Source of the DNA: a virus
Virus record (IMG/VR): IMGVR_UViG_3300013131_000185
Span: 1 to 28,976 of that record
Reading direction: 5' to 3' (one strand)
DNA length: 28,976 nucleotides
The notes beneath the pieces were generated by a model that was given only the letters and a program-made list of their open reading frames with translations, did no database searches and was not told the DNA's origin. Of this stretch, positions 775-28,976 are shown piece by piece; position 1 is the stretch's first letter, and each line of letters starts with the position of its first letter. Position numbers and translations under genes: made by a program.

Positions 775-1431
775 TTATACGAGCATGCGGATTTCTTTGA
801 CAATGCCGCAGATTACAGCATCATCGCGCATTGCCATAATTGGGTAACGTGCGTTAAGCGGCTTCAGGAAGTATTGCCCGCCATCGATGATCAGTTGTTT
901 GAAAGTGGTTTCTGTACTGTTCTGGCGGACAATCACATAGCTGCCATTGCGCGCCTCTTCTTCCGGTTCCACAATGATCGTGGCGCCGTTCGGAAATTTC
1001 GGTTCCATGCTGTCGCCTTCGACGATCAAGGCATAGGTGTGCTGCTTGACTTGGATTGTCGTTACGATCCAGTCGTCTGAATATCCTGCTACATAGTTAT
1101 CCACGTTTTCGCTCCAGTTACCAGCCGCCACCATGCTAATTAACGGAACTCTTCCCAATTGTGGCCCGGCGCTTAAGGATGCGCCTTTTAGTAATTCAGA
1201 CATCCGTTCATCGGATGTTTTGCCGGTCGCTAGATAAAGGGCATCAACCCCAAGCGCTTGCGCGATCTGCGGAGTCTTGGCGGTTTCCTGTATTTCGCCG
1301 CATTCAATTTTTGAAATAACAGTTTGATCGAGTCCGGCCAGCCTTCCCAAGCCGGCCTGAGTCAACTTGCGCTGCTTGCGGTGAAACTTGATGCGTTCGC
1401 CGAGTGTCTTCATTTGATCATTAAAGCGCAT
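775..1431 (-). CDS. CI/LexA-type phage repressor (HTH plus S24 peptidase domain)
   Basis: The 218-residue protein has an N-terminal helix-turn-helix (about residues 8-65, with LTQAGLGRLAGLDQTVISKIE as its core) and a C-terminal S24 self-cleavage domain. The expected elements are visible: an Ala103-Gly104 cleavage site in VAAGN, nucleophile Ser141 in GDSMEP and the general-base Lys178 in TTFKQL. It should hold the phage in lysogeny and be inactivated by RecA-stimulated autocleavage after DNA damage. The gene lies between two matching operator clusters and is divergent from the Cro-like gene. No ribosome binding site precedes either Met1 or Met7, so the start is uncertain. A leaderless repressor mRNA, as for lambda cI, is possible. 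Confidence 0.93.
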   Translation of the reverse strand: MRFNDQMKTLGERIKFHRKQRKLTQAGLGRLAGLDQTVISKIECGEIQETAKTPQIAQALGVDALYLATGKTSDERMSELLKGASLSAGPQLGRVPLISMVAAGNWSENVDNYVAGYSDDWIVTTIQVKQHTYALIVEGDSMEPKFPNGATIIVEPEEEARNGSYVIVRQNSTETTFKQLIIDGGQYFLKPLNARYPIMAMRDDAVICGIVKEIRMLV

Positions 1432-4955: not shown

Positions 4956-5152
4956 ATCCAAAACCATTTCATTCTGCGTTACCTGTCGAGGCGCAGCTGA
5001 TCCTTCGGCGCGCCTGCCTGATCGAGAATACCGAATTCGATTCCTTGGCAAAGCTCAAGGCTATCGACAAAGCTAACGAGCGGATCCGGATTCTCTTTCC
5101 GGAGTACTTTATCCAGGAGGCCGAAGATGCAGATCACGCTGACGCTGAATGA
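4952..5152 (+). CDS. Small hypothetical protein
   Basis: The 66-residue acidic protein is coupled to rusA by ATGA. It is predicted mostly helical (LPVEAQLILRRACLI..., AKLKAIDKANERIRILF) with a DADHADAE tail and no cysteines near known motifs. I do not recognise it. Its last 26 bases overlap the start of the next gene, whose ribosome binding site (GGAGG) lies inside this frame. Coding is supported by tight packing and matching composition. Confidence 0.6.
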   Translation: MNPKPFHSALPVEAQLILRRACLIENTEFDSLAKLKAIDKANERIRILFPEYFIQEAEDADHADAE

Positions 5153-5357
5153 GAAGGGCCGTCGCATTGGGGATAGTCACTGGAATGCCAAGCTGACTAA
5201 CCATGAGGTGGATTTGTTGCTAAAGATGCACGATGAGGGGATGACGTATGGCGCCCTGGCGGCAATCTTTGATATTTCAAAGCGCAGTGTGCGCGACATT
5301 TGTAGTGGTCGCCGTCGCTGTCAAACGGTGATGGGGTTTAAGGTCGTGGAGGTGTGA
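5127..5357 (+). CDS. Helix-turn-helix protein in the Q position
   Basis: The 76-residue protein contains a clear helix-turn-helix: HWNAKLTNHEVDLLLKMHDEG, then MTYGALAAIFDISKRSVRDI (about residues 36-56), followed by a basic CSGRRRC segment. Proteins of this kind, with a G-(D/E)-SHxNAKLT start, are common in phages and usually unassigned. It is the last gene before terminase, where lambdoid phages place the late regulator Q, so a role in late expression is possible but unproven. The start is fixed by GGAGG about eight bases upstream. GGAGGTG near its end serves the small terminase gene. Confidence 0.72.
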   Translation: MQITLTLNEKGRRIGDSHWNAKLTNHEVDLLLKMHDEGMTYGALAAIFDISKRSVRDICSGRRRCQTVMGFKVVEV

Positions 5358-5628: not shown

Positions 5629-6943
5629 AATCACGGTCCGCCTGGACTATTTCCCGCGGGAATGGCAGCGCGAATGCCATGACCGACGTGAGCGTTTTAC
5701 GGTGTTGGCGCTGCATCGCCGGGCGGGTAAGACTGAGCTGGCCATTATGGAGTTGGTAGACAAGGCGATGAAGTTCAATCAAAGCCTGGGTCTGTTTTTT
5801 TATGTGGCGCCGTATTTGAAACAAGCCAAGGCGATTGCCTGGGCGCGCTTAAAGCAAAAGATCACGCCGCTGATGTTGTCGAATGCGGTGGAGATTAACG
5901 AGAGCGACCTGTCGGTGACGTTCAAATCGAACGGGGCGGTGATCCGGATATTTGGCGCCGACAACCCTGACGCGATGCGTGGTGTGCGCCTGGACGGATG
6001 CGTGATCGATGAGGTTGCGCAGATCAAGCCGGAAGTTTGGGACGACATCCTGCAGCCGGCGCTTTCTGATCGCAAAGGCTGGGCATTGTTTATTGGCACG
6101 CCGCAGGGGATCAACTTATTCAGCGAGCTGTACTACAAAGCCGAGGCGTTGCCTGACTGGCATTGTGCCAGGTACACGGTGTACGACACGAATGCGATTG
6201 ACCAGGATGAGGTCGAGCGCCTGAAGCGGGACATGAATGAAACATCTTATGCTCGCGAGTATTTGTGCGATTTCACGGCGGCCGGTGACGACCAGCTAAT
6301 TTCCCTGGCGGATTGTGAAGAGTCGGCCAGGCGAGGATTCAAGCCGGGCGAAATGGACCATGCGCCACGCATCCTTGGCGTGGATCCGGCGCGCTTCGGT
6401 GATGACCGATCGGTGATTTTTAAGCGCCAGGGATTGCAGGCCTTTGATCCGCTGGTGTTCCGTGGCATCGACAACATGGACCTGGCGGCCAGGGTGGCGG
6501 CGCTGATTGAGTTGTGGGAGCCAGATGCGGTGTTTATTGATTCTGGCGCCGGCGCCGGGGTGATCGATCGTTTGCGCCAGCTGGGCCATGATGTGACCGA
6601 GGTGCCTTTTGGCGGCAAGGCAACAGACACCACGCTATACATTAACCGCCGATCCGAGATGTGGTTCCTGATGGCCGAGTGGATCCGCATGGGCGGCGCG
6701 ATCCCGAATCATCCGACCTTAAAGCAGGAGCTGGCCACGCCGATCTACTGGTATGACGCGGCCGGCAAGCGTGTGCTGGAACCGAAGGACGATATTAAGA
6801 AGCGCCTGCAAGGTGGCGCCTCGCCAGACCTGGCGGACGCCCTGGCGTTGACGTTTGCCTATCCGGTGGCGAAGCGCAACCTGTTACCGGCCAGCGCAAG
6901 GCAAAAGAAAGCGGCCGAGTACGACCCGTACAGGTCTATTTGA
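5621..6943 (+). CDS. terL: Terminase large subunit
   Basis: With start GTG 5621 the protein is 440 residues (VSEITVRLDYFPREWQ...). The ATPase domain shows Walker A HRRAGKT (32-38), Walker B CVIDE (127-131) and the coupling motif GTPQG (159-163). The nuclease domain has Asp255 in GVDPARFGDD, Asp307 in VFIDSG and Asp403 in SPDLADA, the three metal ligands of the RNase H-like fold. It pumps and cuts DNA at the portal. TTG 5612 is an alternative start in frame; neither start has a clear ribosome binding site, and coupling to the overlapping small subunit gene is likely. The 3' end overlaps the convergent lipoprotein gene by eight bases. Confidence 0.95.
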   Translation: MSEITVRLDYFPREWQRECHDRRERFTVLALHRRAGKTELAIMELVDKAMKFNQSLGLFFYVAPYLKQAKAIAWARLKQKITPLMLSNAVEINESDLSVTFKSNGAVIRIFGADNPDAMRGVRLDGCVIDEVAQIKPEVWDDILQPALSDRKGWALFIGTPQGINLFSELYYKAEALPDWHCARYTVYDTNAIDQDEVERLKRDMNETSYAREYLCDFTAAGDDQLISLADCEESARRGFKPGEMDHAPRILGVDPARFGDDRSVIFKRQGLQAFDPLVFRGIDNMDLAARVAALIELWEPDAVFIDSGAGAGVIDRLRQLGHDVTEVPFGGKATDTTLYINRRSEMWFLMAEWIRMGGAIPNHPTLKQELATPIYWYDAAGKRVLEPKDDIKKRLQGGASPDLADALALTFAYPVAKRNLLPASARQKKAAEYDPYRSI

Positions 6944-7175
6944 CGCAGTTGAACGCGCCGCTGAAATCGGCTGTTTTAGCGACAAATTGCGCGTGTTTCC
7001 CGTATTGCGCGCAATGTGATTCTGCAACAGGCAACATGCTTCCGCTGCTGGTGCCAATCGGTGCTTCTGCGTAGCTGACAATAACCGATGATTCTGTTCC
7101 GCTAATAACCTTGGCAGTGCCAGGGGTTGTGGCGCAACCGGCCAGGACGATGGAAATCAAAATCGGTTTTTTCAT
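6936..7175 (-). CDS. Small outer-envelope lipoprotein (reverse-strand moron)
   Basis: This leftward gene encodes 79 residues. It starts MKKPILISIVLAGC, a short signal peptide with lipobox LAGC and lipidated Cys14. The mature part is small, with a C-terminal HCAQYGKHAQFV...FNC pattern seen in several short proteobacterial lipoproteins of unknown function. It has a strong ribosome binding site (GGAGGTG) and its own extended -10 promoter. It stands opposite to all late genes, between terminase and the GNAT gene. These are classic features of a moron expressed in the lysogen. Phage lipoproteins such as T5 Llp block receptors, so superinfection exclusion or surface modification is possible but unproven. 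Confidence 0.85.
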   Translation of the reverse strand: MKKPILISIVLAGCATTPGTAKVISGTESSVIVSYAEAPIGTSSGSMLPVAESHCAQYGKHAQFVAKTADFSGAFNCVK

Positions 7176-7193
7176 GAGACACCTCCTGCGCCG

Positions 7194-7202
7194 AGTATAG
7201 CA
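7194..7202 (-). promoter_or_regulatory. Extended -10 promoter of the lipoprotein gene
   Basis: Read on the minus strand, TGCTATACT gives the extended -10 pattern TGn-TATACT, 18 bases before the lipoprotein ATG. The -35 position (CGAACG) is poor, as tolerated by extended -10 promoters. It lies two bases from the late motif copy at 7205-7215, which fires in the opposite direction. Confidence 0.6.
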
Positions 7203-7204
7203 AA

Positions 7205-7235
7205 GTGCGCGTATTACGTTCGTGTATCAATACCA
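7205..7235 (+). promoter_or_regulatory. Late bipartite motif, copy A (before the GNAT gene)
   Basis: GTGCGCGTATT at 7205-7215 is followed after exactly 14 bases by ATACCA (7230-7235). It shares the upstream box and the spacing with four other intergenic copies. The upstream GG of the other copies is absent here. The ATG at 7244 follows the second box by eight bases. Confidence 0.7.
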
Positions 7236-7243
7236 TGCCGACC

Positions 7244-7702
7244 ATGTTTGATGTGCGCGAATCTACCGTTGATGAGCTGATGCAGTCCGGACAGGCGGAA
7301 ACGCTGTTTGCCGAGCATTGGGATGAGCTGGCATCACACAAGTCGATATTGCCACTGCGACCCAATGTGGATCACTACCGCACCCTAGAAAGCACGGGGA
7401 TGCTGTTGATTCTGACGGCCTGGGCAGATGAGGTGATGGTCGGCTACTCGGTAAATTTTATGACGCCGACGCCGCACTTTGGTGGATTGCTGGTGGTATC
7501 GAACGATCTGCTGTTCTTATCTAAGCCGTACCGTAAAGGCACGGGGTTAGGGCGGGCGCTATTAAAGGCGACGGAAGCGCACGGGTTACGGCGAGGTGGC
7601 AAGCTGATGATGTGGCTGGCCAAGCCTGAATCTCCACTGGCCTGGTTGATGGACAAGCTGGGGTATGTTCCCCAGGAAATGGTTTTTACGAAGGGGTTAT
7701 GA
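7244..7702 (+). CDS. GNAT-family acetyltransferase-like protein
   Basis: From ATG 7244 the product is 152 residues (MFDVRESTVDELM...). It has the GNAT layout: N-terminal helices, a central LLILTAWADEVMVGYSV strand pair, a VVSNDLLFLSKPYRKG strand, the acetyl-CoA loop RKGTGLGRALLKATE and a final KLGYVP motif. Such proteins occur near the portal gene in several podophages; the substrate is unknown. In-frame starts also exist at GTG 7205 and ATG 7235. The GTG lies within the late motif and ATG 7235 overlaps its second box. ATG 7244 has the same distance from that box as the start of the cupin-like gene, so I prefer it. No ribosome binding site is visible for any of them. Confidence 0.85.
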   Translation: MFDVRESTVDELMQSGQAETLFAEHWDELASHKSILPLRPNVDHYRTLESTGMLLILTAWADEVMVGYSVNFMTPTPHFGGLLVVSNDLLFLSKPYRKGTGLGRALLKATEAHGLRRGGKLMMWLAKPESPLAWLMDKLGYVPQEMVFTKGL

Positions 7703-7703
7703 C

Positions 7704-8018
7704 ATGGGAGCTGTGACCAATGCAATTAGTGCGGTTGTAAGTACGATAGCTGGCGGTGGCGGCAGTCCTGCCCCAGCGCCGGTAGCAAATCCTGCAGCGA
7801 ACCTGGCAAACCAATTTAGTTATATCGCTAAGGCTAGCAGCGCTGGCCAGCAGAATATGTCTGGGACTCAGAATGCCAAACAGGCTGGCAGTGGCGCGGC
7901 ACTCTCTTCCGCAATGCAAGCCGGTCTATTAAACGGCAATCAAACCCTGCTGAATGGCCCCAATGGAGTGGAGCCGAGCAAGTTGCTGCTCGACAAAAAC
8001 ACGTTGCTGGGTGGCTAG
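7704..8018 (+). CDS. Small Gly/Ala-rich virion-associated protein with C-terminal NTLLGG
   Basis: The 104-residue product starts at ATG 7704, one base after the GNAT stop and behind AAGGGG. The N-terminus (MGAVTNAISAVVSTIAGGGG) is weakly hydrophobic, the middle is rich in Ala, Gly, Ser and Gln, and the end reads LLNGPNGVEPSKLLLDKNTLLGG. The same ending recurs in the protein at 8514-8876. Similar small proteins ending in (K)TLLGG occur next to podovirus portal genes and are thought to be minor head or connector-region proteins. Exact function is unknown. A longer frame upstream lies inside the GNAT gene and is rejected. Confidence 0.72.
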   Translation: MGAVTNAISAVVSTIAGGGGSPAPAPVANPAANLANQFSYIAKASSAGQQNMSGTQNAKQAGSGAALSSAMQAGLLNGNQTLLNGPNGVEPSKLLLDKNTLLGG

Positions 8019-8050
8019 GGTGCGCGTATTGCGCTGAGCTGCACATAGTC
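8018..8050 (+). promoter_or_regulatory. Late bipartite motif, copy B (before the cupin-like gene)
   Basis: GGGTGCGCGTATT (8018-8030) begins within the preceding TAG stop. Fourteen bases later is ATAGTC (8045-8050), and ATG 8059 follows after eight bases. No ribosome binding site is seen, so a very short or absent leader is predicted if this is a promoter. Confidence 0.75.
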
Positions 8051-8058
8051 TGCGCGCT

Positions 8059-8511
8059 ATGGACGAGATTATTCCTGGTACGCAGATCAATCCTGATCTT
8101 GAGCGTGTGCAACAGCTGGAAGCCCAGATGTTGCAGATGCCTCAGCTTGAGCTGGAAACACGCCACCTGATTCATGGTGGGATGTATGCCAGGACAATCT
8201 TCTTGCCCGCTGGAACGGCCGCTGTCGGGGCGCTATTAAACCTAGACAACATCTGCATCATTGCCGGGGATATGAGTGTCACTACGGACGACGGACCAGT
8301 GCGTTTGACCGGGTATCACGTTTTATCCGCCAGTGCTGGATTCAAGCGCATTGGATACGCGCATACAGATACCTATCTGACAACGCTGTATCCGACAACG
8401 CTTACCACGGTGGCAGAGATCGAGGACGAGATGACCGATGAGGCAGATCGTTTGCAAACCAGGCGGGCTGCATTGCGGCAGCAGGATATCTCACTGATAG
8501 AGGGGGAATAA
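8059..8511 (+). CDS. Cupin-like phage structural or accessory protein
   Basis: The 150-residue protein has a helical N-terminus (LERVQQLEAQMLQMPQ) followed by a beta-rich region: ETRHLIHGGMYARTIFLPAGT, VGALLNLDNICIIAGDMSVTT, then a FKRIGYAHTDTYLTTLYPT strand. The pattern of HLIHGGMYAR, PAGT and later GYAHTDT matches cupin-fold phage proteins found near T7-like and BPP-1-like portal genes. Most have no established role. The C-terminal third is an acidic helix (EIEDEMTDEADRLQTRRAALRQQ). It starts the transcription unit that includes the portal and is followed two bases later by the next gene. Confidence 0.75.
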   Translation: MDEIIPGTQINPDLERVQQLEAQMLQMPQLELETRHLIHGGMYARTIFLPAGTAAVGALLNLDNICIIAGDMSVTTDDGPVRLTGYHVLSASAGFKRIGYAHTDTYLTTLYPTTLTTVAEIEDEMTDEADRLQTRRAALRQQDISLIEGE

Positions 8512-8513
8512 TT

Positions 8514-8876
8514 ATGGCTTTCGTAGTTTCTGCAGTCGTTGGCGCAGGTGCAATGGCGTTGGGCGCTGGCGCCTTGACCGCCGTTGGTGTTGGTCTGGCT
8601 GGCGGCGCATTGTACAACCAGCAAAAAACGGCCAAGGCGCAAGTGGCAGCTCAGAAGCAAGCCAATTCGATAGCACAGCAGTCTGCAACGAAACAGGCGG
8701 CCCAGGCGGACCAGGCCATGAATATGGCAAACCGCAAGACGCCGGATGTTGGGGCAGCCTTAGCCGGCGCACGTCAGGCCTCGCTGCTCGGTGGATCCGG
8801 AACGATGCTGACCGGACCGATGGGCGTAGGCAATGACCAACTCACCCTGAATAAAAACACACTGCTCGGAGGCTAA
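8514..8876 (+). CDS. Small Gly/Ala-rich virion-associated protein, paralogue of 7704-8018
   Basis: The 120-residue product opens with a hydrophobic glycine/alanine-rich segment (about residues 2-33, FVVSAVVGAGAMALGAGAL...), probably membrane-interacting. A Gln/Ala-rich helix (QKTAKAQVAAQKQANSIAQQ) follows, and the end is MLTGPMGVGNDQLTLNKNTLLGG. That ending aligns with the protein at 7704-8018 (GP-GV, L-L-KNTLLGG). It resembles small T7 gp6.7/7.3-class head proteins in size and context, but this is inference. The ribosome binding site GAGGGGGA precedes ATG 8514, and the portal follows three bases after the stop. Confidence 0.75.
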   Translation: MAFVVSAVVGAGAMALGAGALTAVGVGLAGGALYNQQKTAKAQVAAQKQANSIAQQSATKQAAQADQAMNMANRKTPDVGAALAGARQASLLGGSGTMLTGPMGVGNDQLTLNKNTLLGG

Positions 8877-8879
8877 TCC

Positions 8880-10577
8880 ATGAGCCTGCATACCGGGGAT
8901 TCCCAAGCGCATCCGCAGTCGCCATTGCGCGACAAGCTGTACACCCGCTGGGGCCAGCTGCGTGCGGAGCGGGCAACCTGGTGGAGTCACTGGGCGGAGA
9001 TCAGCCAGTACCTACTCCCCAGGTCTGGCCGATTCTTTGTACAAGACCGCAACAAGGGCTGGCGCCGGCATAACGCGATTTACGACAACACTGGTACCCG
9101 TGCATTGCGTGTTCTTGCGGCCGGCATGATGGCAGGAATGACGAGTCCGGCCAGGCCATGGTTCCGGTTGTCGATCAATGATCCGGAGCTGATGCGTTAT
9201 CAACCGGTGAAAATCTGGTTGAACGATGTCACTCGCCTAATGCTGGAAGTATTCCAGAAGTCTAATAACTACCGGGCGCTGCATTCGATGTATGAGGAAC
9301 TGGGCGCCTTTGGTACCTCGGCCTCAATTGTCGTGCCGGATTACGACAATGTGATCCACCATTTTCCACTGACCACCGGCGAGTACGCGATTGCCACAGA
9401 TTACCGCGGCAAGGTGTCCACGCTGTACCGAGAATTTCAAAAGACTGTGCATGAACTGGTCGGTGAATTTGGCTATGAAAATTGTTCCACGGCCGTGAAG
9501 AATATGTATGACCGCGGAAGTCTGGATCAGTGGGTGACGGTGATCCATGCGATTGAGCCGCGGGCGGATCGTGATACTGGTAAGCGCGACAACAAAAACA
9601 TGCCATGGCGGTCGGTATATTTTGAGATCGGCGCCGACAAGGACAAGTTCCTGCGCGAGTCCGGGTTCAAGGAGTTTCCTGCGGTGGTGCCGCGCTGGTC
9701 GATTTCAGGCGGTGACATCTATGGCAACAGTCCTGGCATGGAAGCCCTGGGCGACATTAAACAACTACAGCATGAGCAGCTGCGCAAAGCCCAGGGGATC
9801 GATTACAAAACCAATCCGCCGCTTCAAGTCCCTACCGCCATGAAGAATCGAGACGTCGAGCGATTGCCAGGCGGGGTGTCGTATGTGGATATGAACACAG
9901 CGCATGCCGGGATCAAGACTGCATTTGAGGTCAACCTGGATCTGTCGCATCTGCTGCTGGACATCCAGGACGTGCGGCAGCGGATTAATGGATCGTTTTA
10001 TGCCGACCTGTTCCTGATGCTGGCCAACGGTACGGACGCCAGGATGACGGCGACCGAAGTGGCCGAGCGCCATGAAGAAAAGCTACTGATGCTGGGTCCG
10101 GTGCTGGAACGTCTGCATAACGAACTGCTGGATCCGTTGATTGATATGACCTTTAGCCGGATTGTCGAGGCTGGGATCTTGCCGCCGCCACCGCCTGAAA
10201 TGCAAGGCGTGGATCTGAATGTCGAGTTTGTGTCCATGCTGGCCCAGGCGCAGCGTGCGATTGGCACCAACAGCGTGGACCGCTTTGTGGGCGGTATGGG
10301 CATGGTTGCACAGGCAAAGCCTGAGGTGCTGGACAAGTTTGATGCTGACAAGTGGGCCGACATCTATTCCGACATGCTGGGGGTTGATCCTGAACTGATC
10401 GTCGCAGGTGACAAGGTTGCCATGATCCGGCAGCAGCGTGCAGATGCCATGCAGCAGCAGGAAAAAATCGCACAGATGCAGCAGAAAGCGCAGATCGCCA
10501 AGGACATGAGCGCGACTGATACCCGTGGCCAGAATGCGCTGACCGACGCGACTCACCAATTCAGTGGTTACACCTAA
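8880..10577 (+). CDS. Head-tail connecting (portal) protein
   Basis: The 565-residue protein has the signature of the podovirus head-tail connector family (T7 gp8 type). The N-terminal LRDKLYTRWGQLRAERATWWSHWAEISQYLLPRSGRF segment is followed by the YDNTGTRALRVLAAGMMAGMTSPARPWFRL block. A wing and clip region contains RWSISGGDIYGNSPGMEALGDIK, and the C-terminal stem holds NGTDARMTATEVAERHEEKLLMLGPVLERLHNELLDPL. It forms the dodecameric ring through which DNA enters and leaves. The end is a Gln/Ala/Met-rich coiled tail. GGAGG precedes ATG 8880. Length is typical, and the C-terminus looks complete. Confidence 0.95.
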   Translation: MSLHTGDSQAHPQSPLRDKLYTRWGQLRAERATWWSHWAEISQYLLPRSGRFFVQDRNKGWRRHNAIYDNTGTRALRVLAAGMMAGMTSPARPWFRLSINDPELMRYQPVKIWLNDVTRLMLEVFQKSNNYRALHSMYEELGAFGTSASIVVPDYDNVIHHFPLTTGEYAIATDYRGKVSTLYREFQKTVHELVGEFGYENCSTAVKNMYDRGSLDQWVTVIHAIEPRADRDTGKRDNKNMPWRSVYFEIGADKDKFLRESGFKEFPAVVPRWSISGGDIYGNSPGMEALGDIKQLQHEQLRKAQGIDYKTNPPLQVPTAMKNRDVERLPGGVSYVDMNTAHAGIKTAFEVNLDLSHLLLDIQDVRQRINGSFYADLFLMLANGTDARMTATEVAERHEEKLLMLGPVLERLHNELLDPLIDMTFSRIVEAGILPPPPPEMQGVDLNVEFVSMLAQAQRAIGTNSVDRFVGGMGMVAQAKPEVLDKFDADKWADIYSDMLGVDPELIVAGDKVAMIRQQRADAMQQQEKIAQMQQKAQIAKDMSATDTRGQNALTDATHQFSGYT

Positions 10578-10589
10578 GAGGACGATCCT

Positions 10590-10904
10590 ATGCAAGACAT
10601 GAAAGTGACTAAGCCCGCAATGCCGGGCGAGCCTGCACGCGATGTGCCTGAATATCCCTATGGCCTGCGGTTGTGCCTGGACGACGAGAGCCTGGCAAAA
10701 CTTGGCATGAAGGATCTGCCGGCAATTGACGCGGATTACAAGCTGACAGCTGTGGCGTGCGTGGTGCGGATTAGCCAGGACGAAAGCCAGGGTGGAGAGC
10801 CGCGGCGTTCAGTGGATCTGCAGATTGAGCAGATGGAGCTGACGCCGACTAAAGAAGAGGCTGGTGAGTCGAGTGCAGCGAGCTTGCTGTATCCAAACCA
10901 GTAG
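10590..10904 (+). CDS. Hypothetical head-region protein
   Basis: The 104-residue protein sits between the portal and the second head cluster, with ribosome binding site GAGGA before ATG 10590. It is acidic and beta-rich in the middle (YGLRLCLDDESLAKLGM..., YKLTAVACVVRISQD, RSVDLQIEQMEL) and looks like a single small domain followed by a disordered tail. A protein at this place in related podophages is usually annotated as a capsid staple or as hypothetical. I can support a structural role only by position. Its stop overlaps late motif copy C. Confidence 0.7.
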   Translation: MQDMKVTKPAMPGEPARDVPEYPYGLRLCLDDESLAKLGMKDLPAIDADYKLTAVACVVRISQDESQGGEPRRSVDLQIEQMELTPTKEEAGESSAASLLYPNQ

Positions 10905-10936
10905 GGTGCGCGTATTGATGAAAACCAAATTTAGAG
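10904..10936 (+). promoter_or_regulatory. Late bipartite motif, copy C (before the Bbp19-like gene)
   Basis: GGGTGCGCGTATT (10904-10916) overlaps the preceding TAG. After 14 bases comes TTAGAG (10931-10936), and ATG 10944 follows seven bases later with no clear ribosome binding site. The region between is A-rich and otherwise unlike the other copies, so the conserved parts stand out. Confidence 0.75.
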
Positions 10937-10943
10937 TAGCAGC

Positions 10944-11288
10944 ATGAGCAGTTACGACCCGCTCGATATTCGCGCTCAGGAAGCTGCGGAGGCTGATCGC
11001 AAAACACGCGACAAGCTAGGTGCAGAAAACGAAGAGGCGGATTTTAAGTGGCTCATGGGCAGCAGACGAGGACGCCGGATTGTTTGGCGCCTTCTGGACC
11101 AGGCCGGTGTGTATCGCTTGAGCTTCAACACTAACGCAATGACGATGGCTTTTGCGGAGGGGAATCGAAGCTACGGCAATCGCACGATGGCATTGATCCA
11201 TTCGATCTGTCCGGAGCTGTATCCAACGATGCTACGGGAGAATGTAAATGACAGAAATGCTGATGACGGAAGCCACAACGACCACTGA
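10944..11288 (+). CDS. Bbp19-like phage protein
   Basis: The 114-residue protein has a charged N-terminal helix followed by DFKWLMGSRRGRRIVWRLLDQAGV, then SFNTNAMTMAFAEGNRSYGNRTMALIH and CPELYPTMLRE. This matches the Bbp19-like family first known from Bordetella phage BPP-1, a small helical protein of unknown role encoded just before scaffold and capsid. It may act in head assembly. It overlaps the scaffold gene by 41 bases in another frame. It opens the unit that also holds scaffold, capsid and cement genes. Confidence 0.82.
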   Translation: MSSYDPLDIRAQEAAEADRKTRDKLGAENEEADFKWLMGSRRGRRIVWRLLDQAGVYRLSFNTNAMTMAFAEGNRSYGNRTMALIHSICPELYPTMLRENVNDRNADDGSHNDH

Positions 11289-16852: not shown

Positions 16853-16885
16853 GGGTGCGCGTATCTCCGGGATGAGCCTTTAAGG
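16853..16885 (+). promoter_or_regulatory. Late bipartite motif, copy D (before the gp14-like gene)
   Basis: GGGTGCGCGTATC (16853-16865) abuts the TAA stop of the nozzle gene. TTAAGG (16880-16885) follows at the constant 14-base spacing. ATG 16913 is 27 bases further on with ribosome binding site AGAGGA, so this copy would give a conventional short leader. It is the only copy ending TATC. Confidence 0.75.
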
Positions 16886-16912
16886 TAGCCACAACCTAAA
16901 GAGGATCAGCCC

Positions 16913-17464
16913 ATGGGATTCTTTGATATTAACCCGCAACAGATAGCAGGAATGTCAGCGATTGGCTCGACGTTCGGCGCCATTTCGTCCGGGATCGGGG
17001 CGTATTACGGCGCCCAGATGCAGCAGATCAATCTGCAGCATGCCGCATTCATGTCGGATCTGAATGCCAAGATGGCCGAGAAAGAGGCGCAATACACTCT
17101 GGATCGCGGCCAGAAAATGATCGGCCAGCTGACGCTAAAAGCCGGTCAGCTGAAATCATCGCAACGCGCCAGGATGGCAGCCAACGGGATTGATCTTGGC
17201 GAAGGCAGTGCCGGTGAGATCCTGGCATCCACCGACATTATGAAGGAGTCGGACGCCCTGACCATCAGCGCGGATGCAACCCGTGCTGCGTGGAATTCGC
17301 GCATCCAGTCCACCAATTATTCCAACGATGCCATGATGAAGCGCGTGTCTGCCAACGGCATATCGCCATTTAGCGCCATGACCAGCTCACTGTTGGGCAG
17401 CGCGGGATCCGTGGCAAATAGCTGGTACAAGTACAGCCAGATACAGCCAGATCGCGTGAGGTAA
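16913..17464 (+). CDS. Internal virion protein, T7 gp14-like
   Basis: The 183-residue product has an N-terminal glycine-rich hydrophobic segment (about residues 12-35, AGMSAIGSTFGAISSGIGAYYGA), followed by a long helix rich in Gln, Ala and Met and the phrase RARMAANGIDLGEGSAGEILASTDIMKESDALTI. This pattern is typical of the small ejection proteins that form the outer-membrane pore in T7-like phages. It is first in the unit of internal virion genes, followed by two larger proteins as in T7 (gp14, gp15, gp16). The start is supported by AGAGGA. Confidence 0.88.
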   Translation: MGFFDINPQQIAGMSAIGSTFGAISSGIGAYYGAQMQQINLQHAAFMSDLNAKMAEKEAQYTLDRGQKMIGQLTLKAGQLKSSQRARMAANGIDLGEGSAGEILASTDIMKESDALTISADATRAAWNSRIQSTNYSNDAMMKRVSANGISPFSAMTSSLLGSAGSVANSWYKYSQIQPDRVR

Positions 17465-17632: not shown

Positions 17633-19204
17633 ATGCAGCTGGAACTGGATGAGGCCAAGGTTAAGGAGCTGGACAATAAGTTTGCTGAGGCCCTGCGCAC
17701 GCAGATGCACGACCAGGCGGGCGGGTATCTGAATCGCCAGGGCGGTGAGGCAGTAAACCTGCATCAGTTCGCCCGCGACTTGGTGACCAAGACTGCAGAT
17801 GTGTTTGGCCAAGAACTGAAAACGCAACAGCAACAAGCGATGTGGCAAGCCGTGGCCAATCGGCGCGTACAGTCAGCAATGGAGCAAATCGATGTGCATG
17901 CGGCGCGCCAGGGCATGGTTTACCGGGAGGGCCAGACGGTTGCTCGCGTTAAGACCGGCGTGGATGATGCTGTGGCTAACTGGGCCAGCGGTGACGCACC
18001 CGGCAGCGCCTATTCCATGGCGCGTGCGACTGCGATGTCAGAAGTGGAAGCCTTGGCCGGGATGCGCGGCTATAGCTCAGAACAGACTGCACAGCTGCGC
18101 CAGGAAACCCTGACCAGCATGCACGGCAGTGTTTTGAATAACATGATTAGTCTGGGCGCGACCAAGCAGGCCACCGAATACCTGGATAAAAATATCAAGG
18201 AGATCGATCCGGATAAGGTGGACGATCTGCGTAACCTGGTGAAACAGTCCAGCGTCAAGGACGAGTCTTTGCGTTTGTCGATGTCCCTGAATGGCAGCCT
18301 GGCGCAGAAGCGCAAGACGCTGCAGGAAATGTTCCAAAAAGGTGAGATCAGCGCGGATGTCTTTGATGCGACGACCACCCGTGCCGAGCATGACTACCAG
18401 GTGCAAAAAGCCCAGCAAGCTGAATGGGAAAAATCCCTGGTCGGCCAGGCGCAGGACTATCTGATCAAACATCCGGAAGCCACTGTACAAGATCTGCCGC
18501 CACAGATGTATCGCGGCCTGGTGAACTCTGGGCATATTGGCACCATTGCCAGCTTTGCCCGTTCCGGCCGCTTTGATACCGATCCTAAGACCTGGGCCTC
18601 GATTGTGGGCATGCCACAGGCGGAGCTGGCGCGAATGACGCCGACGGATTTCTATAACATCTATCGCGGCAAGCTGGATGACGCCCACCTGGAAAAAGGT
18701 TATGCGCTACTCGCCGCCGCGCATGGCGATGTCAGCGATCCCAAGCACCTGGATATTCTCGGCACTGCAGATCGCGTCAAGGGCGCTGCAGTCAAGCTCG
18801 GCATCATTGATGCCACGGGTAAACAAAGCGATGACCAGGCGGTCGCCTTCCACAACTTTGAACAACAGATCGATCAGCGCGTGCGCGTGTTTGAGGCAAC
18901 CACCCTGGGCGGCAAGCGCAAAGCCAGCGGGGATGAGCTGCAGCAAATTATCGACCGCGCCACGCTGGAAACGGTATGGACGCCAGCAACCTTCTTCAGC
19001 GGCGCCAAGCAGCAGCCACTGGTCACGATGGACCCCGATGATCTGAAAAATGCCTATGTGGTAGTGGGCGGTGAACGAATTGGCGTGGCCACGATCCCGC
19101 CAGCGCAACGGGCGGCCATTACCGACAAGCTGATGTCGCGCGGATTACCCGTGACGGAACAGACGATTGCCTCTTTATGGGTTCAAGCCGGAAAGCCGAA
19201 TTGA
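17633..19204 (+). CDS. Main part of the second internal virion (ejection) protein
   Basis: The frame reopens at ATG 17633 and encodes 523 residues, largely helical and rich in Gln, Ala and Lys (DEAKVKELDNKFAEALRTQM, YLDKNIKEIDPDKVDDLRNLVKQ). The middle and C-terminal parts show the ejection-protein style DFYNIYRGKLDDAHLEKGYALLAAA and a final helical domain. It corresponds to the T7 gp15 slot: a periplasmic tunnel component used in DNA injection. The TAA three bases ahead allows termination-reinitiation, since AAGG overlaps that stop, but spacing to the ATG is poor. The true N-terminus is probably 17468. It ends two bases before the giant protein gene. Confidence 0.82.
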   Translation: MQLELDEAKVKELDNKFAEALRTQMHDQAGGYLNRQGGEAVNLHQFARDLVTKTADVFGQELKTQQQQAMWQAVANRRVQSAMEQIDVHAARQGMVYREGQTVARVKTGVDDAVANWASGDAPGSAYSMARATAMSEVEALAGMRGYSSEQTAQLRQETLTSMHGSVLNNMISLGATKQATEYLDKNIKEIDPDKVDDLRNLVKQSSVKDESLRLSMSLNGSLAQKRKTLQEMFQKGEISADVFDATTTRAEHDYQVQKAQQAEWEKSLVGQAQDYLIKHPEATVQDLPPQMYRGLVNSGHIGTIASFARSGRFDTDPKTWASIVGMPQAELARMTPTDFYNIYRGKLDDAHLEKGYALLAAAHGDVSDPKHLDILGTADRVKGAAVKLGIIDATGKQSDDQAVAFHNFEQQIDQRVRVFEATTLGGKRKASGDELQQIIDRATLETVWTPATFFSGAKQQPLVTMDPDDLKNAYVVVGGERIGVATIPPAQRAAITDKLMSRGLPVTEQTIASLWVQAGKPN

Positions 19205-19205
19205 T

Positions 19206-22200
19206 ATGCCAGACATCTATGACCAGCTGCTCGACAATAAATATGGATTGCGCTCCGATGGCACTCCCAAGGGGGCCGGTTACTTTGGAGAATTGAAGCG
19301 CCCGGACGGCGCTATTTCGACTGAGTTATCGATTGGCGTCAACCTGGATGGCCAGGAACGTGAGATCCCGTCCCTGGTGCCAACCTTGTCAGCGGATGAG
19401 GTGGATCACATGCTTCAGGGCGGCCAGCCGACCGACGGGATTGTGCAAAAAGCCGTGGAGCATGCGCGCATGCGGATGTCCCGCGGCCAGGATGTCTTTG
19501 CGACGGCGGATGATGCGCCGCGCCCAGCACCCAAAAAACCCGATATTTATGACCAGCTGATCGACGGTCAGCTGCAGCAGCAAGAGCAGCAACTGCGCGG
19601 CATGTTAGACATCGCCGGCAAGGGCAACCCGGACCAGGCGGCGGAAGCGCAAAAGCTGGCAGTGCAAACCGGGCTACCGACGGATATGGTCGAACGCAAC
19701 CTGGACGAAGTAAGGCGCCAGGCCATGGTCAAGCGCATGAACCTGCGCGACATGATGGTATCCAGCCCGGTGCTGGCACGCCAGCTGACTGATATGAACT
19801 TTGCGAAGCTGGCATTCGATGACCACGAAAATCTAAGCGGCATAGAAAAAGGTTTTAATTTCCTGAAAAACACTGGTGCTGCATTGGCCACGGCGATCCC
19901 GACCTTCAATGAGGGCGCCTGGGGATTGGTGCAAGCGGCCGGAGATCATTTGCCCAGCCAGCTGGGCGGCGATGATTTGGCGCAATGGGCTAGTGGTTAT
20001 CGGAAATCCGCCAAGGTGCGCGGTGATGACTGGATGCCACAAGCCGATGGGACATTGGAGCGCAGCTGGTATTCAGGCATGCGCTCGCTGGGTCTGAACC
20101 TACTCAACTTGCCGCTGGCCTATGGCACCGGAGGCATGGGCCGGATTTTAGGGGCGATGGGCGCAGAAACCGGCGGCCAGGCGTATGGCCAGGCGCGCGA
20201 TGCCGGACTCAATCAATATGAGTCGCTGTTGTTTGGCTCGTCACAGGGCGTCATTGAGGCCGGCACAGAAATGATCGGGATGCCGGCGCTGCTTGGGATG
20301 CTGAAGCCTGGACAATTTGTGACCAAAGCCATGGAGTACATGGTGAAGGAACAAGGCGGCGAGCAGATTGCGACTCACCTGCAGGATATGAATGAGTGGG
20401 CCATGCTGCACCCGGAAAAATCGCTAGGCGATTATCTGGCAGAACGTCCCAATGCGGCGCTGGAAACCGCGCTGTCCACGGCATTTGCCGGTGGTGGCCA
20501 GGTGGCGGTGATGAAGGGCGTGGCGATGGTGGCCAACCGCGGCCAAAGTGCAGCGGCCGCTGAGCAGCGTGCGGCGGCCTTGGAGCAGCTGAACAACCTC
20601 ATGGCCGCCAGCAAGGTGCTGAGCCGCAGCCCGGAGGCGATGGGCGGGTACGTCGAACAGCTGGCCAAGGAAACCGGCGCGGAAAATGTGTATCTGCAAT
20701 CTGGTTTACTGACTGATCCGGCCTTGGTCCAGGCGCTGAGCCAAGCATCGCCGTCGATTGCCGCGCAGTTCCAAACCGCGCAGGCGACCGGCGGTGAGAT
20801 CCGCATTCCGATGACCGAGTATCTGACGCAGTTGGCGCCCACCTATGGCCAACAGCTGATCGATGATCTGCGCCTGGAAGGGGAGCAATTCACCCGGCGC
20901 CAGGCAACAGAATACATGCAGAACCAGTCTGCGGAGCTGCAACAGGAAGTCGAGCGCGCTCTGGGCGACCAGGCAGGGCATGCCGAATTTCGCGCCAGCC
21001 AGGATGCGGTTAAGCAGCGCGTACTGGATGAGCTGAACACCCTGGGTCGCTTTACCCCGCAAAAGAATGAGCTGGATGCCACGCTGATTGCGGCGCGCTC
21101 AGCCGTCCGGGCCGCCCAGCTGGGGATGACGCCGGAGCAGTTTTTTGAAAAGCAGAGATTGCGCGTTCAAGCCGAAGGGCAGGGCGATCAGTTTGACCAA
21201 GCGGCCAAGCCATTTAATGGATCGATTGCCGAGCTGTCGCATCACGTTGCCAAAAATCCTGGCGATACGGCTTTTTATGTCAACCTGGGTAACGCCGAAG
21301 CGGCCACAGACATCCAAGCGTTGACTGGGATTGATGTTTCTAATGCGCGCATCGTAGCGCTTGGCAGCGATGTTCGGTCGGATACGCGCGATCACCCGAA
21401 TATGACGGCTGAAGATTGGAACCGCGCGGCCGGCTTATTGACGGATCACGATGCCGCAGGTCGGAGCATTGCCCAAAAAGGCGCCCAAGGCGAGCGAATC
21501 ACCCTGGTGAAAGACTTAGGTGATGGTCAGTCCTATGGCGCAGTGTATGAACTTAATGAACGCAAGAGCCACGGCAAGCGCCTACATTTGAAAACATTTT
21601 TTAAGGACAAAACGGCCGGGGTAAATAATTGGTTTGCGTCGAACACGCGAGAAAAATTAGCGCCAAGGCTCACGGCCGCGGGTGGGGACTCCCGCCTTCC
21701 CAATAACCCTGATGAGGGGTCAAACCGGACTTTCCCTGGCGCTGATGGGAATATAGAGGAATATCACCAGCAAGACAATCCCCCAGATCGTCTGGTCGCG
21801 ATGCACAACGTCAGTACCGAGAAGCTGCTGGAGGCGGTGGTCCTAGGCGGCATGCCCGTGCCGTCGATTGGGATTGCCAAGGCAGATTCACCGCTGACCG
21901 GGTTTGGCGATATTACGCTGCTGGCCCGTCGCGACATGATCGATCCGGCAACCGGCACGCCGGTATTTGACGCCGACGTATATTCTGCACGCAAGCCTGC
22001 ATTGTTGTGGCCTAAAGCCAAGACCAAGGCCGCAGAAAAGTTTGTTGCTTGGCTGAGGCCCTATGCCCAGCGCTTCAAGGATTCGTCCACCCCGTCAGAA
22101 GCCTGGGACTTCCTGCTGAATACACCGGATCGCGGACGCCTGGTTGAGCGCCTGGAGCGGTCGGCCGCAATGCGACTGGCTTACCTAGAGGCGCAGGGCG

Positions 22201-25200
22201 AAACGTTTGAGATGCCCATGCGGCAAGCGCCGTTACATTTTCAGTGGTCGAATGATCCTGAGATCCACGGTGGCGCCACTTGGGCAGCGAAGGAACAGGC
22301 AGCGGCCGCAAACCGTTTGGAAGGTGAGGCGCGCGAGGCATTTCTGGCCAGCGATGAGGCCCAGGATCTGCGGGCATTTGCGGCGGTGGTGCATGGCGCC
22401 ATGGACCGCTACCTGGCATTGCATCCTGAACTGACGGACGACGCACGCTTTACGGCACGCGAACGCATAGCAGTCACCTGGGGAAACGATGGCAGCTGGG
22501 CAAATCGCACGGACGGGTTTATTCCATGGAAGGTCGTCGATAAGATTTTCAACGATGTCAGTACTGGGGTGACGGATGAAGTGGACACCTCGGCCGCGGA
22601 AAAGCAGCTGCGGGAACAGACTGATACGCCGGCATTCCACGAATGGGTAATGTCAAAGGTCGAGCCGTTGTATGGCGAACCGTCTATCCAGGTCGGAAGG
22701 AAAAAGCTGCCGGTAACGCTGCATAACGTCGTAGCAGCAATGACGAGCGGGCGCGTCAGTGGGCAAGAGAAAACCATGACCTATGGCGCCGGCCAAGCCC
22801 GCGCGGCGATGGCCACGCGCTATCGGTCTATCGAACAGATCCAGGCGGATCGCGATCGGATTGTATCGCCCGAAGCGCATGAGGCCTTCAAAAAATCCAG
22901 CGATGACACCTTAAGCGCTTACCGTGATCTGGCGTCAACGCGCTTTACCGAAACTAACTGGCGCGGCGAAATCGACATTTGGGGCGCAATGGATGCGTCC
23001 ATGAAGGTGTTGGCTAGTATCGGCGGCAAGAAAAAGCTGACGGATGCCATGATTGTTGCGGCGTACCGCAAAAACGGGTTCAACGTGACGGCGGCGGATG
23101 CGGAGCTGGTGGCCAGTGCGCGCGATGCTGCCCAGGCGCTTAGTTCAACGCCAGTGGATTACCTGGAAGCCAAGCCGCAAAGGGTTGTGCATTTCAACGA
23201 GTTCGCCGGTGCGGTCATTCCCCAAGATGCGTCGCAAGCGGTACGCGAAGCGCTGGCACAGCATGGCGTGCCGGTGATGGAGTACAGCGGGGAGGAAGAT
23301 CGCGGTGCCGTGACTACCGCGTTTGCGCGTCAGCTGCATGGCGAACATGGAGACGTGCTATTCCAAAAGAACCAGCAAAAGAACCGGGGCGCGTTCAATC
23401 CGGAGAGCAACACGATCAGCTTGCTGAAAGATGCGGATTTGTCCACATTCCTGCACGAAGGCGCGCACTACTTTTTTGAGAATGATATTGCGCTGGCCAG
23501 TGAGCTGTCGGCTCAGCAGCAAAATGGTCAAGGGCTAACCACGGGCGAGCAGCAGATCGTGGACGATGTACAGGCCTTGTTGGCCTGGCATGGCATCCAG
23601 GGCGACATCGCGGATCAGCTGAGTCAATGGACCAGTATGAGTTTTGAAGAAAAGCGCGCTTACCATGAGCGTACCGCCGAATCTTTTGAGGCCTACCTAA
23701 TGGAAGGTAAGGCGCCCAGTATTGAGCTGCAGCGTTCTTTCCAGTTTTTCCGGGCCTGGCTGCTGAATGTGTACCGGTCACTGAAGGATTTTCTGGGTCG
23801 CCATCCGGAGGCTGGCAAGCTGAACGCTGAGGTGCGCCAAGTATTCGACAGGATGCTGGCCACGACCGAGCAGATCAAGCTGGCTGAGCAGGCACGTTCT
23901 TTGATGCCATTGTTTGGCACGCCGGAGCAAGCTGGGATGACGGTGGAAGAGTTTGCCCAGTATCAGGCAATGGGGATCGCAGCCACCCAGACGGCGATCG
24001 AGCAGCTGCAGGCCAAGGGTCTGCGGGATATGCAGTGGCTGCAGAATGCGCGCAATAAAAAGATTAAGGCATTGCAGCGCGAAGCGGAGGCCAAGCGTCG
24101 CCAGGTCAGATCCAGTGTGCGCGCTGAAGTCATGGCGCAACCGGTGTACCGCGCCTGGCAATTTTTGACCGGCAAGATCAGCAAGTCGGACAAGATCGAT
24201 CCGATGGCGCCGCGCAAGTCGGATCCTAATGTGTTGGATGAAACCCAGGATTCGTTGTTTACCGCGATTGCCAAGCTGGGCGGCATTGATAAAGCCGAAG
24301 TCATGGCGACCTGGGGGACGGACAAGGCGGATAAGCCGCATTCCGGACTCTTTGGCAAACCGGTATGGCGTGTCGAAAACGGACTCAGTATCGACGGCAT
24401 GGCCGAGGCATTAAGCCAATATGGCTACCTCACGCCGGATGAGCATGGCAAGGTCGATGTGCGCGAGCTTGAGGAAAAGTTTGCGGCCGAGCTGTCCGGT
24501 GATACCCAATACTCGAATGCGTATGAGCCGGATGCGTTTGATCAGATGCGCCCAGGCGAGCAGGTGCCTAACCTAACGGCCATTATTGCCGGCCGCCTGG
24601 ATGCGCATGCGTTGAAAGAAACCAGCCTGACCGATGACCAGATCAAGATCCTGCAGGCCCGCGGAATGGTGGCGGCTGATGGATTGCACCCGGACCTGGT
24701 GGCGGACTTGCCCAGTATCCGCATCGGATCCGGCGATCAGTTGGTTCATCTTTTGGCAAAGGCGAATGATCCAAAGTCCGAGATAGAGCGCCTGACGGAC
24801 GCGAAGATGCTAGAGATGTACGGTGATTTGGCCAGCCCGGACGCGATTCAGAAAGCTGCGGACCAGGCGGTGCATAACGATCTGCGCGGCAAGATGCTGG
24901 CAACGGAAGCCAATGTGTTGGCTCAGGCTATCGGTAAACAAAAAATCCTGGCGGATGCGGCTAGGGAATTTGCCGCCAACATGATTGCCCGCCTGCGCGT
25001 GCGCGAAGTTAAACCGGCGCAATATGTGAGTGCCGAGGTGCGGGCCGCCAAGGCGTCGGCCGAGGCCAGCGACCTGAATGTCAAAGCTGCAGAAAAACGC
25101 AACCAGGTGATTCAGCACTATGCGGCCCAGGCGGCGTATGACGCCATGGACGAAGTGGAAAAGGGCATTCGCTACCTGGGCAAGTTTAATAAGGAATCGA

Positions 25201-27536: not shown

Positions 27537-27568
27537 GGTGCGCGTATTGGGCTGCCTGGCAGATAGCC
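27536..27568 (+). promoter_or_regulatory. Late bipartite motif, copy E (before the tail fibre gene)
   Basis: GGGTGCGCGTATT (27536-27548) overlaps the final base of the TAG stop. ATAGCC (27563-27568) follows 14 bases later. ATG 27597 lies 28 bases further, after CAGGAG, giving a conventional leader like copy D. Confidence 0.75.
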
Positions 27569-27596
27569 TTAGAGAAACTCCACAGGAGCATGCGAT

Positions 27597-28976
27597 ATGA
27601 CGATTGCAAGCACGACACGCAAGGCGGGGCCGTACGTTGGCGATGGCGCCGCGAATGTATTTGCGTTTACTTATAAGGTATTCCAGGCAAGTGATTTGGC
27701 GGTGTATGCGGTTGTTGCCGCCACCGGGGTTGCGACCGCCTGGGTGTTGAATGCAGACTATACGGTTGCGCTTAACGCCGATCAAAACGCCAACCCAGGT
27801 GGGTCGATTACCGCAGCGGTAGCGCCGCCGGTGGGTACAAATTTAATCATCGTCAGCGCGGCGCAATCATTACAACCGGCAGCGTTGACGAACCAGGGCG
27901 GATTTTATCCAACGGTCATCAACGACGCGCTGGATCGCGCTGCGATTTCTGCGCAACAGAACGAGCTGGCCTTAAGCTATACATTGCGGGCGCCGCTAAC
28001 CGACACCGCGCCTAGCCTGGTATTACCTGCCGCGTCAGCGCGCGCAGGCACAATGTTGGCCTTCAATGAGGTGACAGGCGACGCCGAGGCTGGCCCGAAC
28101 ATTGCGACCGTCAGCACGGTTGCGGCCGGGATTGCAGACATTAGCACGGTTGCGGCCAGCATAACGGCGGTGACGACCGTTTCCACCAATATAGCCAATG
28201 TCAACGCAGTCGGCAGCAACGTTGCTGCCATTACGGCGGTAAACGCCAATGCCACCAATATCAATACTGTCGCCACGGATCTTGCCGGGACAAACAATAC
28301 CGGTACGGTTGCCGGATCGATTGCGAATGTGAACGCTGTCGGCGGGAACATTGCCGCAGTCACCGCAGTGAACGGCAACGCGACAAACATCAACACGGTC
28401 GCTGCAGATCTTGCAGGTGCCAATAACACCGGGACGGTTGCCGGCAGCATTGCGAATGTTAATGCGGTGGGTGGCAAAATCACTTCGGTGGTGGCGGCAG
28501 ATACGAACATGGCAGCAATTATTGCGGCGCCGACCGAAGCATCGAATGCGGCGGCTTCTGCGTCGAATGCTAACGCAAGCGCAGCGGCTGCATTGATCTC
28601 TCAGACGGCTGCGGCTGCAAGTGCCTCAAGCGCCAGCACGGACGCAGCAACGGCCACCACTGCGGCATCTGCGGCTGGGATCTCGGCGGCTGGCGCCTCT
28701 GGCAGCGCGGCAACTGCGGCAGCATCTGAGCTGGCTGCGGCGACCTCTGCGGGAAATGCGCAGACATACGCGACCTCTGCATCAAATTCCGAAGCGGCTG
28801 CACTGGCGCAGGCGCTGGATGCCAATGCCTCAGCGTTGGCTGCAGCCGGATCCGAGGCAAGCGCACTGACCTATTGGACCAACATCGAGGCGCAGGTGAC
28901 GATCCCAATTACCCAGATGGCCGCCAACCTAATCAACACGCAGGCCATCGTGGTTGCCCACCACGCCTTTGCTTAA
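27597..28976 (+). CDS. Tail fibre protein with T7-type N-terminal anchor
   Basis: The 459-residue protein ends with TAA at the last base of the window. Its N-terminal 150 residues (RKAGPYVGDGAANVFAFTYKVF..., LNADYTVALNADQNANPGGSI, TNQGGFYPTVINDALDRAAI) are the virion-anchoring domain of T7-like fibres. Residues about 175-310 form a repetitive beta-strand region with 43-residue tandem repeats. Residues about 305-420 are a very Ala/Ser-rich coiled stalk. The end (YWTNIEAQVTIPITQMAANLINTQAIVV) lacks a recognisable receptor-binding tip, so a separate downstream gene probably carries that part. CAGGAG precedes the start. Confidence 0.92.
   Translation: MTIASTTRKAGPYVGDGAANVFAFTYKVFQASDLAVYAVVAATGVATAWVLNADYTVALNADQNANPGGSITAAVAPPVGTNLIIVSAAQSLQPAALTNQGGFYPTVINDALDRAAISAQQNELALSYTLRAPLTDTAPSLVLPAASARAGTMLAFNEVTGDAEAGPNIATVSTVAAGIADISTVAASITAVTTVSTNIANVNAVGSNVAAITAVNANATNINTVATDLAGTNNTGTVAGSIANVNAVGGNIAAVTAVNGNATNINTVAADLAGANNTGTVAGSIANVNAVGGKITSVVAADTNMAAIIAAPTEASNAAASASNANASAAAALISQTAAAASASSASTDAATATTAASAAGISAAGASGSAATAAASELAAATSAGNAQTYATSASNSEAAALAQALDANASALAAAGSEASALTYWTNIEAQVTIPITQMAANLINTQAIVVAHHAFA
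28194..28520 (+). repeat. 129-bp tandem repeats in the tail fibre gene
   Basis: Two full repeats, 28194-28322 and 28323-28451, and a partial third from 28452 encode 43-residue units starting ANVNAVG(S/G)N(V/I)AA and containing NATNINTVA(T/A)DLAG and NNTGTVAGSI. The period is a multiple of three, so the repetition serves the protein. Repeats of this kind allow fibre length change by recombination. Confidence 0.8.

Follow-up and report, generated by a model that had tools for sequence, protein, structure and literature searches.

Candidate late promoters with an activator-type box and predicted leaderless starts in a BPP-1-like phage

How could a phage translate late genes whose start codons lie a few bases behind a promoter-like element and have no ribosome binding site in front of them? 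The question is raised by the viral contig IMGVR_UViG_3300013131_000185 (positions 1–28,976; 28,976 bases, hereafter the window), which carries five copies of a two-box unit upstream of late genes. The late region of the window is akin to those of Bordetella phage BPP-1, phage zth2-2 and the isolates ctQRb9 and ctEw122. It contains the BPP-1-like block of portal, Bbp19, scaffold and capsid homologues, its portal protein is 71% identical to that of BPP-1, and BPP-1 covers 34% of a 7.3-kb window query at 69% identity. Our analysis indicates that the five units are very likely late promoters of a type shared by BPP-1-like phages, activated by a small helix-turn-helix (HTH) protein, with three units (A, B and C) giving leaderless mRNAs and two (D and E) giving mRNAs led by a Shine-Dalgarno (SD) sequence.

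Two-box units and the genes behind them

The unit consists of GTGCGCGTAT followed by T or C, 15 nucleotides (nt) and TAnnnT, and it is present in five exact copies on the plus strand. The pattern GTGCGCGTATY-N15-TANNNT matched with 0 mismatches at 7205, 8020, 10906, 16855 and 27538; shuffled versions of the window held a mean of 0.02 units, and never five, even when up to one mismatch was allowed. Unit A (7205–7236) has its predicted activator box, GTGCGCGTATT, at 7205–7215 (position weight matrix score 16.3) and the -10-like hexamer TACCAT at 7231–7236, at the fixed offset of 26 nt from the start of the box. Unit B (8020–8051) has a predicted box at 8020–8030 and the hexamer TAGTCT at 8046–8051, and unit C (10906–10937) a predicted box at 10906–10916 and the hexamer TAGAGT at 10932–10937. 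Units D (16855–16886) and E (27538–27569) complete the set. Boxes B–E are preceded by GG and box A by AA. The hexamers keep the T, A and T that are most important for recognition by sigma70 region 2, and no -35 consensus lies beside the box in these units. A generic sigma70 scan of the window did not report any of the five because a TTGACA-like -35 is absent.

The A of the next ATG lies 8, 8 and 7 nt beyond the final T of the hexamer in units A, B and C, and 27 and 28 nt beyond it in D and E. Behind the short distances, all on the plus strand, lie a GNAT-family gene (7244–7702; PHROG acetyltransferase, 1.4e-9), a cupin-like gene (8059–8511; PHROG short tail fibre) and a Bbp19-like gene (10944–11288; Pfam PF25181, 5.8e-15), the last being the first gene of the scaffold/capsid unit; each of the three is predicted to be leaderless. 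Unit D leads an internal virion protein gene (16913–17464, plus strand; PHROG internal virion protein, 5.5e-24) with the SD AGAGGA, and unit E leads the ATG at 27597 with the SD CAGGAG; both are read as leadered promoters. SD duplex energies are -1.6 kcal/mol for the GNAT gene, -1.1 for the cupin-like gene and -2.4 for the Bbp19-like gene, compared with -6.8 and -6.6 behind D and E and -5.2 to -13.2 for the other late and packaging genes examined whose start is certain. The genes of A, B and C are the only late genes examined that lack an SD. All three start with ATG, the codon strongly preferred for leaderless translation in E. coli. The starts at 8059 and 10944 are unambiguous because the frames upstream of them are closed by stop codons (TGA in the case of 8059). 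Both the distances reported in a first-pass annotation of this DNA and the correlation that it drew between a short distance and a missing SD hold in the window, and the same contrast recurs in relatives.

Two further GNAT starts lie upstream of 7244, GTG 7205, which is the box itself, and ATG 7235, which is in frame with the gene and overlaps the hexamer of unit A. Both were rejected, as they sit inside the promoter and would add residues that are missing from SD-led relatives. Two such relatives, locus L047 with MYEIRESTVSEML (MYEIRESTV) and locus L009 with MTEIRPSNVDEML (MTEIRPSNV), align with MFDVRESTVDEL of the window at 7244; their leaders are 23 and 22 nt long with SD energies of -6.5 and -5.5, respectively. 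The earlier preference for ATG 7244 thus agrees with the aligned starts of SD-led genes. The GNAT gene of L313, which is of the leaderless type, begins MTVIRESTVDEV. Other arrangements occur at this position: six loci (L025, L033, L036, L037, L038 and L041) have an in-frame GTG 11 nt past the hexamer, and in four (L327, L328, L332 and L341) the ATG is placed within the promoter, 2 nt behind the hexamer, and the spacer holds a GGAGG-type SD. The latter four must be read SD-led from a longer RNA, at a locus where their relatives are leaderless. L009 is PQ492659.1, Limnohabitans phage DC33, a 39-kb tailed-phage genome with a BPP-1-like gene order, although the taxonomy line of the record gives a filamentous phage (Inoviridae).

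Spacing and ribosome binding sites among relatives

Homologous loci (295 in total) were collected by portal-based searches of viral contigs and bacterial genomes, by HTH-based searches and from five phage records; the counts below come from related sequences in which redundancy was reduced and tree structure only partly corrected. An exact search of viral contigs for the two boxes (14 specified bases) returned 68 contigs, nearly all with single chance-like matches, and was replaced by this homology-based collection. That search was uninformative because the box drifts between phages, being GGTGCCCGTG in BPP-1 and GGTACCCGTA, GGTGCACGTA or GGTGCGCGTA elsewhere. Prophage relatives that carry the unit are found mostly in betaproteobacteria.

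Upstream of Bbp19, TAnnnT lies 6–11 nt before the start codon in 122 of 172 distinct 45-nt sequences, at a distance of 6 nt in 27, 7 nt in 69, 8 nt in 13 and 9 nt in 10. Nearly all of the 122 have a recognisable box at the fixed offset. The remaining 50, mostly from distant relatives, have no unit, and five of them keep the box together with CAnnnT. The reading of the two-box units as promoters, first proposed from the window, also holds in these relatives.

A matrix trained solely on the Bbp19 promoters of 36 relatives was then applied to the loci as a whole. At a score of at least 12 it gave 101 distinct sense and 0 antisense matches in a first set of loci, and the same matrix gave 381 sense and 11 antisense matches in all 295. 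The distance to the start codon was bimodal in the 133 non-redundant promoters that do not serve Bbp19, with 43 at 6–9 nt, 4 at 10–20 nt and 64 at 21–37 nt, and within the 6–9 nt class 38 of 43 were at 7 or 8 nt. On a model promoter, RNA polymerase starts 6, 7, 8 and 9 nt past the -10 element in 3, 70, 23 and 4% of cases, respectively (PMC5730371). Because the polymerase prefers 7 nt, the start codons of the near class fall at the expected transcript start, and this was the arrangement in 110 non-redundant promoters, where the start codon occupies the initiation position of a sigma70-type polymerase.

The SD sequences follow the same division. A strong SD (-6 kcal/mol or lower) was present at 3 of 43 non-Bbp19 genes in the 6–9 nt class and at 37 of 80 leadered genes (Fisher 5e-6), with median energies of -2.4 and -5.9, respectively. 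Where the ATG lies inside the promoter (1–5 nt), a strong SD was found in 6 of 7 cases. Among Bbp19 orthologues, 6 of 122 with the unit and 23 of 50 without it have a strong SD. The SD is lost exactly at the distance class in which it would be untranscribed. Leaderless translation of the GNAT, cupin-like and Bbp19-like genes is well supported by these sequence comparisons.

A candidate activator of the box

The predicted late activator is a 76-amino-acid HTH protein, homologous to Bbp27 of BPP-1, whose gene (5127–5357, plus strand; HTH_7, 2.4e-5) precedes a putative small terminase gene (5359). Its profile gives weak matches to sigma region 4, a D5-like regulator and a late activator, and it is HTH_7/sigma-region-4-like, not MotA. 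An AlphaFold model of the protein has three helices with a confident core. Because the alignment of HTH proteins was too divergent to support a pattern scan, searches relied on individual HTH proteins.

Across 90 protein-box pairs, the highest corrected mutual information of all residue-base combinations was that between residue 57 and box base 6. Residue 56 and box base 4 ranked third, and both residues lie in the recognition helix. At position 57, D goes with G (15/15), G with G (5/5), K with C (41/43) and R with A (11/15); at position 56, Q goes with A (7/7) and H with T (3/4). In disjoint related pairs, residue 57 and base 6 differed together in 25 of 27 cases, and residue 57 differed at an unchanged base in 7 of 40 (p = 5e-10). 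The window pairs R56-D57 with GTGCGCG, consistent with other R-D phages. Among loci with enough upstream sequence, 84 have both promoter and HTH gene, 29 have neither, 15 have the HTH gene only and 4 the promoter only; of the 15, in which no TAnnnT was found at Bbp19, 5 keep the box with CAnnnT. The covariation of residues 57 and 56 with box bases 6 and 4 makes it very probable that the HTH protein is the activator.

We infer the following course of events. The HTH protein would bind the box (GGTGCGCGTA) at about -38 to -28, in place of a -35 element, and would recruit host sigma70-type RNA polymerase to the weak TAnnnT -10. At A, B and C, transcription would start 7–8 nt past the hexamer, either at the A of the start codon or one base ahead of it, and the leaderless GNAT, cupin-like and Bbp19-like mRNAs would be translated through leaderless initiation of the 70S type. 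Where the start codon is 27–28 nt past the hexamer, as in units D and E, initiation would be SD-led. A more tentative extension, which we consider possible but somewhat short of an even chance, is that the leaderless heads of key late operons form an obligate second lock. Read-through RNA would carry no ribosome binding site there, and the GNAT protein, Bbp19 and the products coupled to Bbp19 would therefore be made only from activator-started transcripts. The same extension would place the HTH protein in an undescribed family of activators that replace the -35 element, with a residue-base code of 57 to 6 and 56 to 4.

A lipoprotein-like gene on the minus strand, MKKPILISIVLAGCATTPG, stands back to back with box A (window 6936–7175 and 7190–7236); its SD, GCAGGAGGTG, is strong, and its -10, TTGCTATACT, is of the extended kind. 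Binding of the activator at box A could shut this gene off. BPP-1 likewise has a minus-strand lipoprotein-like gene, bbp28, adjoining bbp27. Elsewhere in the window, a 43-nt inverted repeat (356–398 and 1434–1476, 81% complementary) flanks the region of an S24/LexA-like repressor gene (775–1431, minus strand), and a single open frame of 2789 amino acids spans 19167–27536 in the internal virion protein region, where ctQRb9 and BPP-1 also have giant genes.

Alternative explanations and known systems

Several observations weigh against the proposal. Bbp19 starts with GTG in 30 of the 172 upstream sequences, in some clades, and in ten loci (L027, L028, L034, L035, L311, L315, L321, L330, L332 and L342) this GTG lies 7 nt past the hexamer; non-AUG leaderless starts work poorly in E. 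coli (PMC9031893). A marine clade has a spacing of 6 nt, a rare initiation position, and the six loci with the in-frame GNAT GTG at 11 nt also have an ATG at 7 nt that does not share the frame of the gene. A pyrimidine before the ATG gave no help and was dropped as an initiator signature, being equally common in the leadered class. A fold search with the HTH model returned no match better than E = 0.1, and the role of the HTH protein at the box could be that of a repressor.

This last point can be developed into a separate explanation, in which the HTH protein is a box-binding repressor or a packaging-site protein and the units owe their activation either to a different phage factor or to host sigma alone. 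HTH proteins are often repressors, the gene adjoins that of the small terminase, and the protein occurs in the 15 loci without a detected TAnnnT at Bbp19. However, the box occupies the place of the -35 and leaves no -35 consensus, 5 of the 15 retain the box next to CAnnnT, and sigma region 4 and a late activator are, along with the D5-like regulator, among the weak profile matches; we consider this explanation unlikely. We give slightly less weight still to the possibility that the units do act as promoters, while translation of the GNAT, cupin-like and Bbp19 genes takes place on read-through mRNA of upstream promoters, initiation being SD-independent or coupled and the position of the ATG incidental. 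Read-through itself is likely, since the late genes all run in one direction, and the four GNAT genes with an ATG inside the promoter and an SD in the spacer need a longer RNA. Read-through does not explain the peak at 6–9 nt or the loss of the SD solely there, and the upstream stops, about 40 nt before the ATGs of B and C, are too distant for ordinary coupling.

The 3' edge of the unit often adjoins the start codon, as would suit a translational or RNA operator instead of a promoter. Yet the unit also stands 21–37 nt or more from the starts of other genes, its second half, TAnnnT, is the signature of a sigma70 -10 and its first half covaries with a DNA-recognition helix, and an operator is very improbable. 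Least probable of all is that the boxes serve a single-subunit RNA polymerase of the phage itself as promoters, an idea to which repeated conserved sites ahead of late units might point. T7-type promoters form one continuous block ending near +6, whereas the 15-nt spacer here is unconserved, and no polymerase label was met among the searched window proteins or the listed BPP-1 genes, except for the BPP-1 reverse transcriptase. Activation by the HTH protein, with leaderless starts at A, B and C, thus remains the reading that we favour.

The analysis predicts a late-gene switch (box, transcript start and activator) for BPP-1-like phages, including BPP-1 itself, the model for diversity generation. 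It also points to an arrangement of leaderless starts that is conserved in structural operons of phages of proteobacteria, in which initiation is as a rule SD-led. Gene annotation is affected as well, since such starts will be misplaced by tools that require an SD, and the protein-box covariation offers a candidate for a natural specificity code.

BPP-1 (Rauchvirus) is the closest described system. In the region of portal, Bbp19, scaffold and capsid its genes are arranged as in the window. The unit occurs at bbp24, the GNAT gene (8 nt), at bbp19 (7 nt) and, with a leader, at bbp9 (28 nt), and the HTH protein Bbp27 is encoded directly before the small terminase gene. It differs in its box (GGTGCCCGTG) and in its recognition residues, A-K as opposed to R-D in the window, and no unit was seen at the cupin-like bbp23. 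The proposed recruitment of host polymerase by the HTH protein can be likened to that by MotA because the box lies in the -35 place, the hexamer is TAnnnT and there is no other -35; in T4 middle promoters, which depend on sigma appropriation, a sigma70-type -10 is likewise paired with an activator box, centred near -30, in place of the -35 (PMC2988021). The T4 scheme differs in its MotA box (TGCTTtA), in its need for an excellent -10, where the window hexamers keep only TAnnnT, and in having no leaderless starts. It also uses the partner AsiA, whereas here we find a single short HTH protein, without MotA homology, and no partner was identified. Leaderless middle and late mRNAs are known from Thermus phage phiYS40 (PMC3594737), a phage of another type with another host; in these proteobacterial phages only some late units are predicted to be leaderless, and each has an activator box. 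The standard leaderless mRNA of a proteobacterial phage is that of lambda cI (PMC9031893), the maintenance transcript of one repressor gene and not a recurring architecture of late structural genes. The literature searched, with subscription journals largely outside it, held no paper on the late promoters or on Bbp27 of BPP-1-like phages. Leaderless phage mRNAs and boxes that replace the -35 are each known, but their conserved combination in proteobacterial phages, with a probable activator identified by covariation, appears to be new.
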